Positions 17,347 to 59,108 of a stretch of DNA of 64,000 nt are shown here, piece by piece. Within the stretch, counting starts at the first letter, position 1. Each line of letters opens with the position of its first letter. Source of the stretch: Bacteroidales bacterium (lineage in GTDB: Bacteria; Bacteroidota; Bacteroidia; Bacteroidales; UBA932); contig JAEEHS010000033.1 of NCBI GenBank assembly GCA_016281015.1, positions 31,814 to 95,813 on the forward strand, given 5' to 3'. The notes below the pieces were generated by a model that saw nothing but the letters and a program-made list of their open reading frames with translations, did no database searches and was not told the DNA's origin. A program made the position numbers and the translations under genes.

Positions 17347-18609
17347 ATGGTCCGAGTAAAACCCTTCGCGGCAATCCGTCCGCCCAAAGATTTGGTGACC
17401 GAGGTCGCCGCACCCCCGTATGATGTCCTGAACTCCGAGGAAGCCCGCGCGATGGCCGGGGAGAAATCCCTGCTGCATATCACCAAGCCGGAGATTGACT
17501 TTAGCCCCATTGCCGGCGAGCACGAGCAGCGCACCTATGACAAGGCCGTAGCGAATTTCAAGGCCTGGAAAGAGAAAGGCTGGCTCCGCCAGGACGGCAA
17601 ACCCGAATACTATGTCTATGCCCAGACGATGGGCCGCCGCACCCAGTACGGCCTCGTCCTCTGTGCCCATACCGACGACTACGCCTCCGGGATTATCAAA
17701 AAGCACGAACTGACCCGCAAGGACAAGGAAGACGACCGGATGATCCATGTCCGTATCCAGAACGCGAACATCGAACCGGTGTTCTTCGCCTACAAGGACA
17801 ACGCCTCCCTCAACGAGATCGTCGCCAAGGCCGCCGCCGGGAAGCCGGAATACAAGTTCACGGACGAGAATGGTTTTGTCCATACCTTCTGGATCATCGA
17901 CGATGACGCGACCATCGCGCGCATCACCGAAATCTTTACGAGTGAGGTGGATGCCTTCTACGTGGCCGACGGCCATCACCGTACGGCGGCCGCTGCCCGG
18001 GTCGGTGCCGAGAAACGCGCCCAGAACCCCGCCCATACCGGAGAGGAAGAGTACAACTGGTTCATGGCGGTCTGCTTCCCCCAGAGCCACCTCGCCATCA
18101 TCGACTACAACCGGGTCGTGAAGGACCTCAACGGACTCAGCGAAGAAGCCTTCCTGAAAGCCCTGGAAGCGGATTTCGAGGTCGCTTTGGCTTCCAAGCC
18201 GCGCTGCGGCCGTCCCGCCAAACCCGCCGCCCCGACCGGCCTCCACAACTTCTCGATGTACCTCGGCGACAAATGGTATTCCCTCACGGCCAAGCCCGGC
18301 CGCTATGACGACAGCGATCCGATCGGCGTGCTGGATGTGACCATCCTGTCCCAGCTGGTGCTGGACAAGATCCTCGGTATCAAGGACCTCCGCACCGACA
18401 AGCGCATCGACTTCGTCGGCGGAATCCGTGGCCTCGGCGAGCTGAGCCGCCGTGTGGACTCCGGAGAGATGAAAGTCGCCTTCGCCCTCTATCCCGTGTC
18501 CATGGACCAGCTCATCCGCATCGCCGACACCGGCAACATCATGCCCCCGAAGACGACCTGGTTCGAGCCCAAGCTCCGCTCCGGCCTCGCCATCCACTCG
18601 CTGGTGTAG
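17347..18609 (+). CDS. DUF1015 family protein
   Basis: VKPFAAIRPPKDLVTEVAAPPYDVLNSEEARAMA...YVADGHHRTAAAARV. Confidence 0.88.
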   Translation: MVRVKPFAAIRPPKDLVTEVAAPPYDVLNSEEARAMAGEKSLLHITKPEIDFSPIAGEHEQRTYDKAVANFKAWKEKGWLRQDGKPEYYVYAQTMGRRTQYGLVLCAHTDDYASGIIKKHELTRKDKEDDRMIHVRIQNANIEPVFFAYKDNASLNEIVAKAAAGKPEYKFTDENGFVHTFWIIDDDATIARITEIFTSEVDAFYVADGHHRTAAAARVGAEKRAQNPAHTGEEEYNWFMAVCFPQSHLAIIDYNRVVKDLNGLSEEAFLKALEADFEVALASKPRCGRPAKPAAPTGLHNFSMYLGDKWYSLTAKPGRYDDSDPIGVLDVTILSQLVLDKILGIKDLRTDKRIDFVGGIRGLGELSRRVDSGEMKVAFALYPVSMDQLIRIADTGNIMPPKTTWFEPKLRSGLAIHSLV

Positions 18610-18640
18610 CGCATCCCCTGTTGGTGTAGCGCATCCCCTG
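18602..18640 (+). repeat. 20-bp-period tandem duplication spanning the DUF1015 stop codon
   Basis: tggtgtagcgcatcccctg at 18602 and again at 18622; includes the TAG stop 18607-18609. Confidence 0.9.
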
Positions 18641-18651
18641 CCGGGGAGACC

Positions 18652-18758
18652 CGTGAAATGGAAACAACTGATTGATAGCTACTTGCCTAATTCAACCTCT
18701 GCAATATGCGGAGGTTGAATTGCATAAAGAATTGGTAGTGAGGCGTTTCCATTTCACG
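18652..18758. repeat. 107-bp palindromic element, copy 1 (module A)
   Basis: Terminal inverted repeats cgtgaaatggaaac/gtttccatttcacg; internal hairpin caacctctgca-ata-tgcggaggttg. Same length as copy 2 at 56885. Confidence 0.9.
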
Positions 18759-18827
18759 CCTCATTGTACCTGCGGGAGAAGCAGCTAGGGCCACGGGTTA
18801 TTGTCAGGGTGTTCCAGAGGTGCCACA

Positions 18828-18987
18828 CGGAGGGCATAGGAGCCGGAGAGGCAGGGGGCCAGCGGACGGCGTAGCCGCCCGTGGCTGCGTGAACGGGAGG
18901 GGCCCACAAGCGCAGCGACGTGGGAGGGATAGGGCCGTAGGCCCGTAACGGGCCGCTGGCCCCCTGCCCGCAGGCGACTGCCCGACG
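18828..18987. repeat. GC-rich structured repeat element, copy 1 (module B)
   Basis: First 33 nt identical to 57228-57260; closed by a perfect 16-bp stem GGCAGGGGGCCAGCGG (18850-18865) / CCGCTGGCCCCCTGCC (18953-18968); internal hairpin cccac-aagcgcagcgac-gtggg. Confidence 0.85.
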
Positions 18988-19023
18988 TGCCGCACCGCCC
19001 GTCCCGGACCTACAGGACGGCGG

Positions 19024-19073
19024 GACCTGCGGGAGAACGAAAATGGCGGAAATCGTTCGGCGGCAGGGACAGC
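19024..19073. repeat. Module C, copy 1
   Basis: gacctgcgggagaacgaaaatggcggaaatcgttcggcggcagggacagc resembles 57472-57525. Confidence 0.75.
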
Positions 19074-19110
19074 GGGACCTGCGGGACAGCGGAACCTGCG
19101 GGACAGCGGG
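19068..19110 (+). repeat. 17-bp tandem repeat beyond the Gfo/Idh/MocA gene stop
   Basis: gacagcggg/aacctgcgg units at 19068, 19085 and a partial at 19102. Confidence 0.85.
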
Positions 19111-19115
19111 AGGGA

Positions 19116-20387
19116 CTACAGGGAGAGGGAGGCGGCGAAGCAGACGAGGAGGCTGTCGCGGGTGGAGGGAAGAGCCGTCAGGGGGGTGTGAGAAGGGTCA
19201 TGGACGGCGTGAAGGAAGTCATCCACGAGGAGAAAGTCGGCGCCGGCGTGGAAAGGAAGCGCGGCTTCGGCGGAGAGGTCGATGCGGCGGGAAGAGAGGC
19301 AGGAAGGGGGGCAGGAAGGGGCCGCTTCGAGTGAGGGTTCGAGTGAGGGTTCGACAGTGATGACGGCCCCGTCGGCGATGATGCGGCCGCGGGTACCCGT
19401 GAGGATGGTCCTCCGCCCCTCATCGGGTGAGAGCCCGTCCATTTCGATGTCCAGGGTAACCCCTTCCCGGGTGAAGACCGTTACCCGCTGCCAATCGGCC
19501 ACGTCGTTGCCCGAATGGAAGGCGCAGCGTCCATAGCGCCCCGTCCGGACCTCCCGCAGCACCGCCTCCTCCTTGGTCTCGCCCGGAAGCGGGAAGAAAG
19601 AGTCGGTCCAGAGGCCACGGCGGAGGTACAGATCCGTAGCCGACCAGGAGCAAGATTCCTGCAGCGGGCAGTCCAGACAGCGCTCTGCAGCACCCTCCGG
19701 GGCCTTCTCCGGACGAAAGAAGGTAAGCCCGCCCTCCGAAGACACCCCGGAGAAACCAGCGGAGGACCCGGGAGAAGCCGGCTCCGCAGGATGGACCCCC
19801 GTCATCCAGAGGAGGATATCCACATCGTGGCAGCACTTCGAAAGAAAAATCGGGGAGGTCTCCCGCGAGGAGCCCCAGGGGCCGCGGACGAAACTGTGAC
19901 ACATCCGGTCACGGCCGATCCGCACCCGGTGGGAGACCGAGCGCAACGCCCCGATGGTCCCCTCTTCCAGCAATGCTTTCAGCCGTCGGTAGAGTGGATG
20001 GTAACGCAGCACATAGCAGCCGCAGGCTACGACGCCGGCGCGCCCCACCTCCTCCAGCAAGGTCTCCAGTTCAGCCACCCCTTCACAGGAAGGCTTTTCC
20101 AGGAGGATATGGTAACCGTAGGATGCCGCCTGGAGCGCCTGCGAGAAATGGCTGCGGTCCGGCGATGAGATGAGCACCGCATCGACGGCGCGGCGCTCGG
20201 CAAAGAACGCCTCCGAAGAAGTGAAACAGGCCTCGGCCGGAACACCGTACTGCTCCCGGGCCGCTTCCAGATGGACCTCGGAAGGCTCGACGACTGCCCC
20301 CACACGGAATGCATCCGGATGTTCCTGAAGATATGCCAGATACTTCCGGGCCCGATTGCCCATGCCGATGACCGCGAGCGAAAGCAT
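19116..20387 (-). CDS. Gfo/Idh/MocA-family oxidoreductase
   Basis: LAVIGMGNRARKYLAYL...VLISSPDRSHFSQALQAASYGYHILLEKPSC; CLDCPLQESC cysteine cluster. Confidence 0.9.
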   Translation of the reverse strand: MLSLAVIGMGNRARKYLAYLQEHPDAFRVGAVVEPSEVHLEAAREQYGVPAEACFTSSEAFFAERRAVDAVLISSPDRSHFSQALQAASYGYHILLEKPSCEGVAELETLLEEVGRAGVVACGCYVLRYHPLYRRLKALLEEGTIGALRSVSHRVRIGRDRMCHSFVRGPWGSSRETSPIFLSKCCHDVDILLWMTGVHPAEPASPGSSAGFSGVSSEGGLTFFRPEKAPEGAAERCLDCPLQESCSWSATDLYLRRGLWTDSFFPLPGETKEEAVLREVRTGRYGRCAFHSGNDVADWQRVTVFTREGVTLDIEMDGLSPDEGRRTILTGTRGRIIADGAVITVEPSLEPSLEAAPSCPPSCLSSRRIDLSAEAALPFHAGADFLLVDDFLHAVHDPSHTPLTALPSTRDSLLVCFAASLSL

Positions 20388-55348: not shown

Positions 55349-56716
55349 ATGAAGCGAAACGCAATCCTTCTTTTTCTCGCAGCGGCGCTGTCCTCCTGCA
55401 ACAAGACAGCGCCTTCTGCCGAAGTAGTTCCTCCTTCCGGACTGGAAATCAGCGGTGAAGGGACGGAAGTCGCCTTGGTCCAGGCTATGGTTCCCGTCGC
55501 AGAAGGCGTATGGGACCTCTACGGCCAGTTCCACAGCGGCCTGGTCAAGGTCGCCGAGACCGGTGGCAAAGAGTTCGTCTCCTTCAGGGTTAATCCCCTG
55601 AAGGAAGGACTCTGCCGGCTTCGCGTCAAGGCTGACAAGAGCTGGAGCCTTGTCCACATCAACAAGGTCTCCCTCGTCGTGACCGAGGGCGGCGTGGACG
55701 ATCCCAAGACTGGAAACAAACCTCCCATCGAGGCCGTTTACGCGGGTGACGGCGTATGGACCGTACCGAAGTTGTATATCGGAACGGACCATGTCCGCTA
55801 CCGCTTCCATCTGGAAACCGACGCGCCCCAGGAGCTTCAGTACTGGTGTGCCAGTTGGGACAACGCCGGCAGCCAGCCGACGGAGTACACGCCGGAGTAC
55901 CTGAAGATTCGCGCCCTCGGAAGCACGGAATACGAGGCCCTCTACCTGAAGGACAACCGGGCCTGCTGGATGTTCCCTGCTTCCGAGACCGAGCGCCTGG
56001 CAGAGTTCCAGCTGTCCATGAATTCGGCCTCTCCCAGCATGGCGGTCAGTTTCTCCACAGCCCACATGGGCCCCAAGGCTGTGTTCATCGGCGACAGCAT
56101 CACCTGGCAGTGGGGTACTTCCCCGAGAGAGATTGCCAAAACTTCGATCGTGATTCCGCTCTCCCCCCTGCCCTCCTTTCTGGAGGACAAAGGAGCGAAT
56201 GTGAAGGTCACCTGGCATCCGCAGTTCTTCACCTCCAATGGCTATGTGGACAAAGGCGTAAGCGGCGAACGGACCGACCAGATGGTCCTTCGCTACCAGC
56301 GTGACGTGTTGAACCTGGATCCCCAGTGCGTCGTCATCATGGGCGGGACAAACGACCTCGCCAATGGCTACACAGAAGCTACTATCCTGTTGAATATCAA
56401 GAAAATGGCAGAGCAAGCTGAGGCGCTGAACATGAAGGTGGTCCTCTGCTCCGTCACACCCTGCAACCGCGAGTACTCCGCCCTGTCAAATCCCAAGACC
56501 AAGGGCGCCCATATCATCAAGTTGAACCAGATGATCAAGGAGTATGCCGACGAGAAGGGCTTCATCTGGTGTAACTACCACCCTCATCTGGTGGCAGAGG
56601 ACAAACTCTCCATGCAGGAACGCTACTGGCTCTACGACGACCTCCATCCCAACCCCGATGCCTACACGGTGATGGAAGGCATCATCAAGCCCATCATCGA
56701 CTCCCTGACGGAGTAG
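55349..56716 (+). CDS. SGNH/GDSL hydrolase lipoprotein with SusE/F-like N-terminal region
   Basis: KAVFIGDSITWQWGT...VVIMGGTNDLANG...YDDLHPNPDAY; lipobox LSSCNK. Confidence 0.87.
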   Translation: MKRNAILLFLAAALSSCNKTAPSAEVVPPSGLEISGEGTEVALVQAMVPVAEGVWDLYGQFHSGLVKVAETGGKEFVSFRVNPLKEGLCRLRVKADKSWSLVHINKVSLVVTEGGVDDPKTGNKPPIEAVYAGDGVWTVPKLYIGTDHVRYRFHLETDAPQELQYWCASWDNAGSQPTEYTPEYLKIRALGSTEYEALYLKDNRACWMFPASETERLAEFQLSMNSASPSMAVSFSTAHMGPKAVFIGDSITWQWGTSPREIAKTSIVIPLSPLPSFLEDKGANVKVTWHPQFFTSNGYVDKGVSGERTDQMVLRYQRDVLNLDPQCVVIMGGTNDLANGYTEATILLNIKKMAEQAEALNMKVVLCSVTPCNREYSALSNPKTKGAHIIKLNQMIKEYADEKGFIWCNYHPHLVAEDKLSMQERYWLYDDLHPNPDAYTVMEGIIKPIIDSLTE

Positions 56717-56884: not shown

Positions 56885-56991
56885 CGTGAAATGGAAACAA
56901 TTGAGCAACAGTAAATTATGACTTTCAACCTCTGCATTATGCAGAGGTTGGATTGCATAACTCATTGATGGATATGAGTTTCCATTTCACG
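56885..56991. repeat. 107-bp palindromic element, copy 2 (module A)
   Basis: cgtgaaatggaaac...gtttccatttcacg-type termini (agtttccatttcacg) and perfect internal hairpin caacctctgca-tta-tgcagaggttg. Confidence 0.9.
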
Positions 56992-57133
56992 CCTCGGAGG
57001 GCCTGCGGAAGGAACTGCTGGGGCTGCTGGTCTGGTGGTGCTGCTGGACTGATGGGTTACAGGCCTGCGGGGCTGCGGGGTGTTCATCAGCATCTTTGTA
57101 AACTGCTGCTATTCAACACCTTGCAAAGTAGTC

Positions 57134-57225
57134 GATGGACAGTGGCGACGAAAAACAGAGAGGTATCCATGATGCATTTCATAAGTTGTTGCAATTCAAA
57201 ATGTTATGAAAACACCGATGGACAG
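57134..57225 (+). repeat. Divergent RAYT-A-type repeat unit
   Basis: tggacagtggcgacgaaaaacagagaggtatccatg...atgttatgaaaacaccgatggacag parallels tggacacc..ctaaaacaggaggggtatccatg...atgttacgaaagcgcccatggaca at 8979-9066. Confidence 0.7.
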
Positions 57226-57227
57226 CC

Positions 57228-57421
57228 CGGAGGGCATAGGAGCCGGAGAGGCAGGGGGCCGAGGATGGCATGGCCACCCTGTGCACCCCAGCCATCTGAG
57301 ATGGCCGGGGACCCCGACGGCCGTGTTAGAGGGAGGGGCCCACAAGCGAAGCGCAGTGGGAAGGATAGCCCCGAAGGGGCGTACCAGCCGAGGCCCCCTG
57401 CCTGCAGGCGACTACCCGACG
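57228..57421. repeat. GC-rich structured repeat element, copy 2 (module B)
   Basis: cggagggcataggagccggagaggcagggggcc identical to copy 1; stem ggcagggggcc (57250-57260) / ggccccctgcc (57392-57402); internal cccac-aagcgaagcgca-gtggg and cccc-gaa-gggg hairpins. Confidence 0.85.
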
Positions 57422-57471
57422 GGCGAGAGCGAGCCCTTCCGCCCCGACACCCTTCGGCCACGCCCCGCCGT

Positions 57472-57525
57472 GACCTGCGGAAGAACGGAAAAGGCCGATA
57501 GCGTTCGGCGGCAGGGACGGCAGGA
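57472..57525. repeat. Module C, copy 2
   Basis: gacctgcggaagaacggaaaaggccgatagcgttcggcggcagggacggcagga resembles 19024-19073. Confidence 0.75.
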
Positions 57526-57716
57526 TGCTTTGTGCGGCCCGAGGCGTGCACACCGGTCCATCGCAGTTACCTGTAGGCTCAAAAAGGCCCGTTTTTGAGT
57601 ACACCCTGCCACCAGTGTGGACCGGTGGGTTCGGGCGTGGTAACAGAGTGGGCTGATGGAATCGGGCGGTGGAATCGGGCGTGGCGACCGTTATACGCAC
57701 CACCTCCCCCGTGAAG

Positions 57717-57795
57717 AGGGCGCCAGCGGGTGACAGGGGCGTCAGCGGGTGACAAGGGCGCCAGCGCGTGACAAGGGCGTCAGCGGGTGACGAAG
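57717..57795 (+). repeat. 19-bp tandem repeat running into the 3' end of the phosphatase gene
   Basis: Gene-sense: cgccctcttcgtcacccgctga|cgcccttgtcacgcgctgg|cgcccttgtcacccgctga|cgcccctgtcacccgctgg; the first unit contains the TGA stop. Confidence 0.9.
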
Positions 57796-59108
57796 AGGGC
57801 GGTGCGGGCGTTGAGGTAGCTGCGGAGGTCTTCCCAGCGGTAGAAGGGGCCATCGGGGGCCGCGTCAATGCCTTTGAGGGTGCCGAGACGGACCTCTTCG
57901 CCGTTCAGGAGCACTTTCACCAGGACATCACCCCGGCCGCAGGCCTTGTCGAAGAAGACCAGCTGGATATTCGCCGCCATGGGCGAACGGAAATTCTGGA
58001 ACCACAGGGGAAGGTCATCTGCCGAAGCGGGATACTGCCCCATCCGGTCGATGTCCATGATCTGGAGAAGGGTCAGCAGGACATGGTCATGGCCAAAGCG
58101 GAGATCCGCCCCGCAGGCCGCATTGCGGTCCACCCGCCCCTTGGCACCCCGGCGGAGCGCCAGCCGCTCATCCGCCTTCGCGACCATGTCGTCGATAACC
58201 GCCGAACAGCTCGTCCGGTACTTGATGTACTCCCGGAGCGATTCGTAGTTGAACGCCTCCCACATGTGGGCATACTCCGAAGGGGTGAAAATGCCGCTGA
58301 CATCGATACGCTCCGCCTCCGGAAGGCTGTTCATCCCACCCACCAGCATATACAGATAGTGGAGGATGCGCATCTCACTCCGGCCGCCCAGGCAACGCGA
58401 AGGGTCCCGCAGCAGGCGCTTCAGCACATTCCCGTATTCGGGGAAAACGTGTTCCAGAAACGCTTCGTTGCTGTCCGGATACGGGAAGACGTTCTCCGGG
58501 CCCGTGTAGCGGAAGGGATTCTCCCCGCCGTGATTCGGCCGTGTCGCCTGGACATCCAGCATGCTCTGATGGGTGTAGATGGCCGTTTTCGGCGCCTTCC
58601 GTGCGAGAGAGAGGCACTCCGAGGTCATGCTCATGATGGCGCGGGGCGAGGGCGAAGAGCAGCCGTCCACCCGGCTCCCCTTCCCGAAGGCGCCCGGGAA
58701 AGACTGGACCATCTGGGCGGCGATCCATTCATGCTGGGCCCATCCGAGGGGCGTCAGGTCGCCGACCTGCCAGCGGTGCTCCGCCCAGAAAGCTTCGAGC
58801 GCGGTCAGAAGCGTCGCTCCCCGCGGCGTCAACAGCCCCGCATCCGCCCCGCTCCGGAGGACCTCCAGCGGCACCGAATAGGTTTTCTCCGTGTAGGCAT
58901 AGCGGGAGCCATGCCGGGCATAATGGCTGATGTAGAAGGCTTTGTAGCCGGAAGGGGCCGGCGTCTGGGCCTTGGGACTGCAATCATAGACGCAGTCGAG
59001 GCCGCTGGCCTTGTTCCAGTCGGAGAGGACTTCTTCGCGCACCGCCGTGCGCTGGGCCCATCCGAGAACGCTCCAGGCAAGGAGCAAAAGAGTCAGAACG
59101 CGTTTCAT
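57780..59108 (-). CDS. Secreted histidine-type acid phosphatase (MINPP/phytase-like)
   Basis: Signal peptide MKRVLTLLLLAWSVLGWAQ; YISHYARHGSRYAYTEK (RHGSR) and GHDHVLLTL. ATG at 59108 preferred. Confidence 0.82.
   Translation of the reverse strand: MKRVLTLLLLAWSVLGWAQRTAVREEVLSDWNKASGLDCVYDCSPKAQTPAPSGYKAFYISHYARHGSRYAYTEKTYSVPLEVLRSGADAGLLTPRGATLLTALEAFWAEHRWQVGDLTPLGWAQHEWIAAQMVQSFPGAFGKGSRVDGCSSPSPRAIMSMTSECLSLARKAPKTAIYTHQSMLDVQATRPNHGGENPFRYTGPENVFPYPDSNEAFLEHVFPEYGNVLKRLLRDPSRCLGGRSEMRILHYLYMLVGGMNSLPEAERIDVSGIFTPSEYAHMWEAFNYESLREYIKYRTSCSAVIDDMVAKADERLALRRGAKGRVDRNAACGADLRFGHDHVLLTLLQIMDIDRMGQYPASADDLPLWFQNFRSPMAANIQLVFFDKACGRGDVLVKVLLNGEEVRLGTLKGIDAAPDGPFYRWEDLRSYLNARTALFVTR

Follow-up and report, generated by a model that had tools for sequence, protein, structure and literature searches.

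Stacked mobile repeats between convergent genes of a Bacteroidales genome, probably including a palindrome with a remodelled pseudoknot core

The window analyzed here is a stretch of 64,000 nucleotides from the genome assembly of a Bacteroidales bacterium (2.35 Mb in 84 contigs), and it contains two sites at which short repeats are lined up between convergent genes. In the initial annotation, these sites were described as two copies of a single composite intergenic element made up of three modules, termed A, B and C. The genes and features, in positions of the window, are as follows.

17395–18609, + strand: left convergent gene, encoding a DUF1015 protein (PF06245, Pfam 3e-104; gene call)
18652–18758, no strand: module A, copy 1, a 107-bp REP-like palindrome (own-genome copies, 13 in number; fold z)
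18824–18990, + strand: module B unit, copy 1 (own-genome copies; arm pairing over 99 copies)
about 18824–18866 and 18945–18990: arms P1 of module B copy 1, on either side of the core and a small hairpin
18932–18944: small hairpin of module B copy 1, within arms P1
18867–18929, + strand: core of module B copy 1, matched by covariance model R1 (71.7 bits, E 6.2e-15)
18871–18888, + strand: pseudoknot helix S1, GTAGCC (18871–18876) pairing with GGCTGC (18883–18888), with covariation
18878–18897, + strand: pseudoknot helix S2, CCCGT (18878–18882) pairing with ACGGG (18893–18897), 100% of cells paired
18903–18924, + strand: core hairpin P3 with a variable loop, 4 pairs with double changes
19024–19080, + strand: module C, copy 1, a repeat unit of ~52 bp that also forms tandem arrays elsewhere
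19116–20387, − strand: right convergent gene, encoding a GFO/IDH/MocA oxidoreductase (PF01408, 1e-18)
55487–56716 (+) and 57780–59108 (−): convergent gene pair around copy 2 (gene calls)
56885–56991, no strand: module A, copy 2, 77% identical to copy 1
57080–57225, + strand: module D, two diverged hairpin units abutting B at the copy 2 site
about 57226–57421, + strand: module B, copy 2 (core match 57303–57365, 36.8 bits, E 8.8e-7)
57472–57525, + strand: module C, copy 2, 85% identical to copy 1
57526–57645, + strand: module E, at the copy 2 site, which follows C in several clusters

By gene calls, convergent genes bracket both sites as annotated, and A, B and C do recur at 56885–57645 in unchanged order and orientation. 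All three modules lie where they had been placed, A as a near-palindrome, B extending slightly beyond the 18828–18987 first given, and C at 19024–19080. The second site had been described as three modules and additionally carries D and E, neither of which had been named. Directly before module A, a sequence of ~20 bp that includes the DUF1015 stop codon (ctggtgtagcgcatcccctg) is duplicated in tandem (18599–18640). At the second site, a palindrome of ~37 bp (CCCCAGCCATC..GATGGC.GGGG) is inserted inside the B pseudoknot at about 57281–57317, and another species has a very similar palindrome at the corresponding point of one of its B copies (L140, near 6759).

The locus is a mosaic of independent repeat families, not one element. 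The A, B and C families each have about a dozen or more copies in the same genome, where A is solitary at most of its sites and D always abuts B with a gap of 0–3 bases. In the genome stretches examined, clusters are incomplete but never depart from the order A-D-B-C-E on a single strand:

A-B-C: copy 1
A-D-B-C-E: copy 2
A-D-B: contig C15
D-B-C: C75, 32 kb
A-D-B-C-E, B being truncated: C75, 44 kb
D-B-C-E: C68 and C28
B-C: C57, C67 and C83
B alone: C21, two sites
A alone: C37 four times, C35, C51 and C18
C arrays alone: C46 and C60

On C46, the 52-bp unit of module C forms two arrays (L080, 3723–3873 and 9126–9323) in inverted orientation, ~5.4 kb apart.

The fixed order and orientation of the annotated composite thus stand, whereas its unity does not, since A goes with a Y1 transposase, while B is also inserted in frame in protein-coding genes and has spread through dozens of other species unaccompanied by A or C. 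One recent segmental duplication would explain the equal order and orientation at the two window sites; it is refuted by the A copies, which are only 77% identical, by the presence of D and E in one copy only and by the independent occurrence of the modules at many other sites. The initial annotation had itself named two lone copies lacking covariation as the result that would speak against it, and the checks clearly gave the opposite: 13 copies of A, 12 of B by blastn or 19 by covariance model, numbers far from those of a chance recurrence, and covariation. On the favored reading, small non-autonomous mobile repeats have piled up in the spacer of a convergent gene pair.

Module A consists of an outer inverted repeat (CGTGAAATGGAAAC/GTTTCCATTTCACG) around a central hairpin (TTCAACCTCTGCA/TGCGGAGGTTGAA), and its RNA fold energy is far below that of shuffled sequences (−49.6 versus −20.9 kcal/mol, z −8.75). 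Its 13 copies are dispersed in a genome that also holds three Y1_Tnp genes. One of these, an intact open reading frame on C37 (27272–28231; 319 aa, with DHIH and YIGNNP motifs read in the sequence), is flanked on both sides by A copies (C37:27073–27185 and C37:28207–28319). The second intact Y1 gene has a 107-bp palindrome upstream with outer ends as in A and a different central hairpin, and a decayed Y1 gene lies near a further copy of this variant. Both intact proteins match REP_Tyr_transpos at 31.5 (C37) and 36.3 bits, below its curated cut-off of 80 bits, for which reason module A is filed as REP-like and not as a canonical REP; the PF01797 match exceeds its cut-off. In the module A copies viewed, a 5ʹ GT[AG]G foot beside the hairpin was not evident by eye. 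It is concluded that A is a REP-like element of the C37 gene for a Y1 (HUH, REP-associated) tyrosine transposase. Beside this Y1 element, three tandem 12-bp partial copies of the A end (CGTGAAATGGGG) occur at about 27037–27072 of C37 (L004).

Within the genus, A is confined to the window species at the sensitivity used, with matches of 28 and 37 bases in two other genomes. Neither A nor B nor C follows the DUF1015 gene in any of the 29 best-matching relative loci; relatives carry, after the orthologous DUF1015 stop, their own palindromes of ~110 bp with the architecture of A and other sequence (L410, L413, L421). Throughout the genus, Y1 genes are often bounded by a palindrome on one side or on both (e.g., L400, L402). 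Module A resembles the REP, BIME and REPIN repeats of TnpA-REP (RAYT) systems in that its palindromes bracket a Y1 gene, much as in a REPtron, and have copies elsewhere, although classical REPs measure 20–40 bp and A measures ~107 bp with a nested central hairpin. A particular parallel is the Bacteroidetes TnpA-Y1 subclass 2.6, reported with atypical flanking secondary structures that are copied elsewhere in the genome (PMC6006769).

Module B belongs to a family apart from A that is apparently undescribed, and no description of it was found among open-licence papers. The element is about 150–170 bp long, and the only conserved part is a core of ~62 nt that forms an H-type pseudoknot and a hairpin. 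Covariation supports this structure, in agreement with the annotation of B as a structured block. In the alignment of 70 copies from which covariance model R1 was built, 91.7% of cells are paired in the proposed structure, and pairing falls to 32–54% when partners are slid by 1–3 columns. Double-change cells number 106 versus 28 ± 4 in shuffled controls, a count that related sequences inflate. In S1, for example, columns 7 and 20 pair as GC in 45 cases and as AU in 24; S2, which crosses S1, is 100% paired, with the pair types CG/UA, GC/UA/AU/CG and UA/CG. The minimum-energy fold of B alone lacks the pseudoknot, which the program used is unable to form, and folding as RNA and as single-stranded DNA are indistinguishable in these data. 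Around the core, the arms are long inverted repeats that differ between copies at nearly every site and pair within each copy: in 93 of 99 copies, pairing with the own partner exceeds the 95th percentile of cross-copy controls. That no rRNA or riboswitch is recognized also holds, as Rfam 15 yielded no match for B at the gathering threshold, and up to E 10 only a chance miRNA match (E 6.1). The topologies of the HDV, twister and pistol ribozymes, compared by eye, do not fit the helix order.

All data come from metagenome assemblies. By covariance model, 49 of the 61 genomes searched in the genus carry B; copy numbers run from 0 to 43, and some nearly complete genomes have none. In an order-level sample, five of 295 genomes carry B, one of them the window genome itself and three others belonging to other families, for some of which mis-binning could account. 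Scanning by pattern, with each species represented by one genome, found at least 119 B stretches, those listed all being in Bacteroidales, Bacteroidia or Bacteroidaceae assemblies. The best matches elsewhere are Bacteroidales MAGs, several of them named Candidatus Cryptobacteroides, which makes this the probable genus. At the sensitivity used, plasmid and phage collections gave no match. Viral contigs gave none with the longer pattern; one contig matched a short pattern at 21 bits and was not counted. Between genes, B favors convergent spacers (38 of 84 sites versus 15 of 123 control spacers of at least 100 bp, p 1.2e-7, with gene calls from a simple purpose-made caller). MAG contigs often end at or near the core (e.g., G046:C29, G047:C203, G088:C10), and B is therefore a common assembly breakpoint.

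Eleven B copies lie inside predicted genes, five in sense and six in antisense orientation, and hosts of clear family include RsmE, TrmB, TilS, MurB, AroE-AroK and PcrA. The reading frame is open throughout the insert, and in-frame copies occur in both orientations; B stays in frame because five of the six frames of its core are free of stops. In TrmB, the affected segment of genome G046 is 144 nt longer than in the insert-free ortholog of G027, and G047 has a short palindrome without core at this site. At the RsmE site, G046, G023 and G057 have B, whereas G047 has a palindrome lacking the core and G027 has little. Other in-frame repeats occur in the same TrmB loop, namely a repeat of the SFRPERSVVEKS type in G004 and a tandem repeat of ~51–54 bp in G023 (L260, L261). 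B would land where insertion is tolerated, as in convergent spacers and protein loops.

Comparison of orthologous sites in G046 and G023 revealed an inverted core in four of seven (TrmB, RsmE, L324/L338 and L329/L340). At TrmB, RsmE and L329/L340, the core is flipped between conserved arms; at L324/L338, the arms are entirely different while the core and its hairpin loop are nearly the same, and independent insertions could account for the difference in orientation. Assembly error is an unlikely, if possible, source of the flips, because the arms of B, at roughly 25–33 bp, are shorter than the usual assembly k-mers. In TrmB, the outer left arm (TTCCGACTC) is normal gene sequence and the right arm carries an inverted copy of it, the outcome expected of template switching. 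Sites with unrelated flanks, including some within the window genome (100% for L090/L093), have arms that are 80–100% identical over 28 nt; core and arms thus move as one, and the arms come to differ later. No target-site duplication was evident in the trmB and rsmE comparisons. Long alignments of shared flanks around B mostly reflect orthologous loci and not some larger element. At the L148 locus (L358, 1–300), B occurs with a very long inverted duplication of neighboring coding sequence at a contig end; this may be an assembly artefact and was left out of the evidence.

From these comparisons, we infer that template switching causes the changes in B arms and core. After insertion, switching of DNA polymerase between the arms would keep them complementary, could carry a copy of the flank of one arm over to the other, and would invert the core. 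Template switching homogenizes the arms of inverted repeats, inverts spacers and creates stems (PMC8604942, PMC8794818), and B would share both arm homogenization and spacer inversion with the repeats so remodelled, although the spacer inversions reported in yeast span 2–5 bp and the structured core of B ~75–100 bp.

Three other accounts of B were weighed against a template-switch-remodelled mobile repeat. Cores might insert into pre-existing palindromes, their random orientation then reflecting a symmetric target and not inversion. The coreless palindromes of G047 at the trmB and rsmE sites would fit such targets, and the account keeps some plausibility, yet it is rather unlikely: the core takes its arms along to unrelated sites, the trmB gene of G027 has no palindrome, and flipped pairs with conserved arms also fit simple inversion. 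A host role for B as a structured non-coding RNA or 3ʹ-end element, for instance in bidirectional termination or RNA stability between convergent genes, is less probable still. The strong convergent bias, the long stable stem, the covariation of the core and the retention of B at orthologous sites in several species would all suit it, but hardly the coding copies in frame in both orientations, the orthologous sites with opposite orientation or the patchy 0–43 copies, with nearly complete genomes lacking B altogether. Least credible of the three is a small self-splicing intron or ribozyme that is removed from the mRNA. The idea is invited by finding a conserved core with a pseudoknot in open reading frames, and removal would explain why B is tolerated in genes; however, roughly half the copies in coding regions run antisense to their host gene, an orientation in which a strand-specific ribozyme could not work, the frame runs through B without stops, and no Rfam ribozyme or intron matches.

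The best explanation as a whole is probably one of stacked mobile repeats, in which A is a REP-like element of a Y1 transposase and B is a mobile palindrome with a pseudoknot core, remodelled by template switching. The folded core may be the feature recognized by the mobilizing machinery. As mobilizer of B, a Y1-type single-strand transposase is the likeliest candidate, a tentative lead only. Among the genus genomes, 43 have both B and Y1, six B only, three Y1 only and nine neither (Fisher p 4.5e-5, kinship ignored), and the association has p 0.009 among the 25 genomes at least 90% complete, kinship likewise ignored. None of the 30 Y1 loci examined for an autonomous partner contains a B core, and the link between Y1 and B therefore rests on co-occurrence.

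As a mobile repeat, B is read here as similar to the Rickettsia palindromic elements (RPEs). Together with their Wolbachia analogues, these are palindromic repeats of ~105–146 bp that occur between genes and in frame in conserved protein genes, and in published descriptions they form long stem-loops whose ends are inverted repeats, with conserved peptides (PMC2229807, PMC10969869). B is likewise palindromic and shares both kinds of site. Unlike in RPEs, to judge by their descriptions, the conserved part of B is an internal pseudoknot while the arms vary; moreover, it is read in several frames and on both strands, its core is found in either orientation, and it belongs to a different phylum. 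Conserved terminal inverted repeats with an encoded peptide are absent from B, and it is therefore not filed as an RPE. Correia elements, which can invert (PMC10969869), and other bacterial MITEs are also small non-autonomous inverted-repeat elements, but their terminal repeats are conserved, whereas B arms are common only within subfamilies, contrary to the definition of a classical MITE. The inverted ends of REPINs are similarly conserved, and those of B are free.

It is possible, though this is a tentative reading, that B represents a new class of bacterial mobile element recognized not by conserved ends but by an internal pseudoknot folded in RNA or single-stranded DNA. If so, the arms would be free to change at each site and the core able to switch strand. 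In-frame palindromic inserts in housekeeping genes have so far been known mainly from Rickettsia and Wolbachia. The B family also carries a caution, namely that compensatory changes along a long stem are not in themselves a sign of selection on RNA. In the poorly studied gut Bacteroidales, B provides a natural data set on the movement of small palindromic repeats, one that bears on how template switching reshapes repeats and on the gain of new protein loops.
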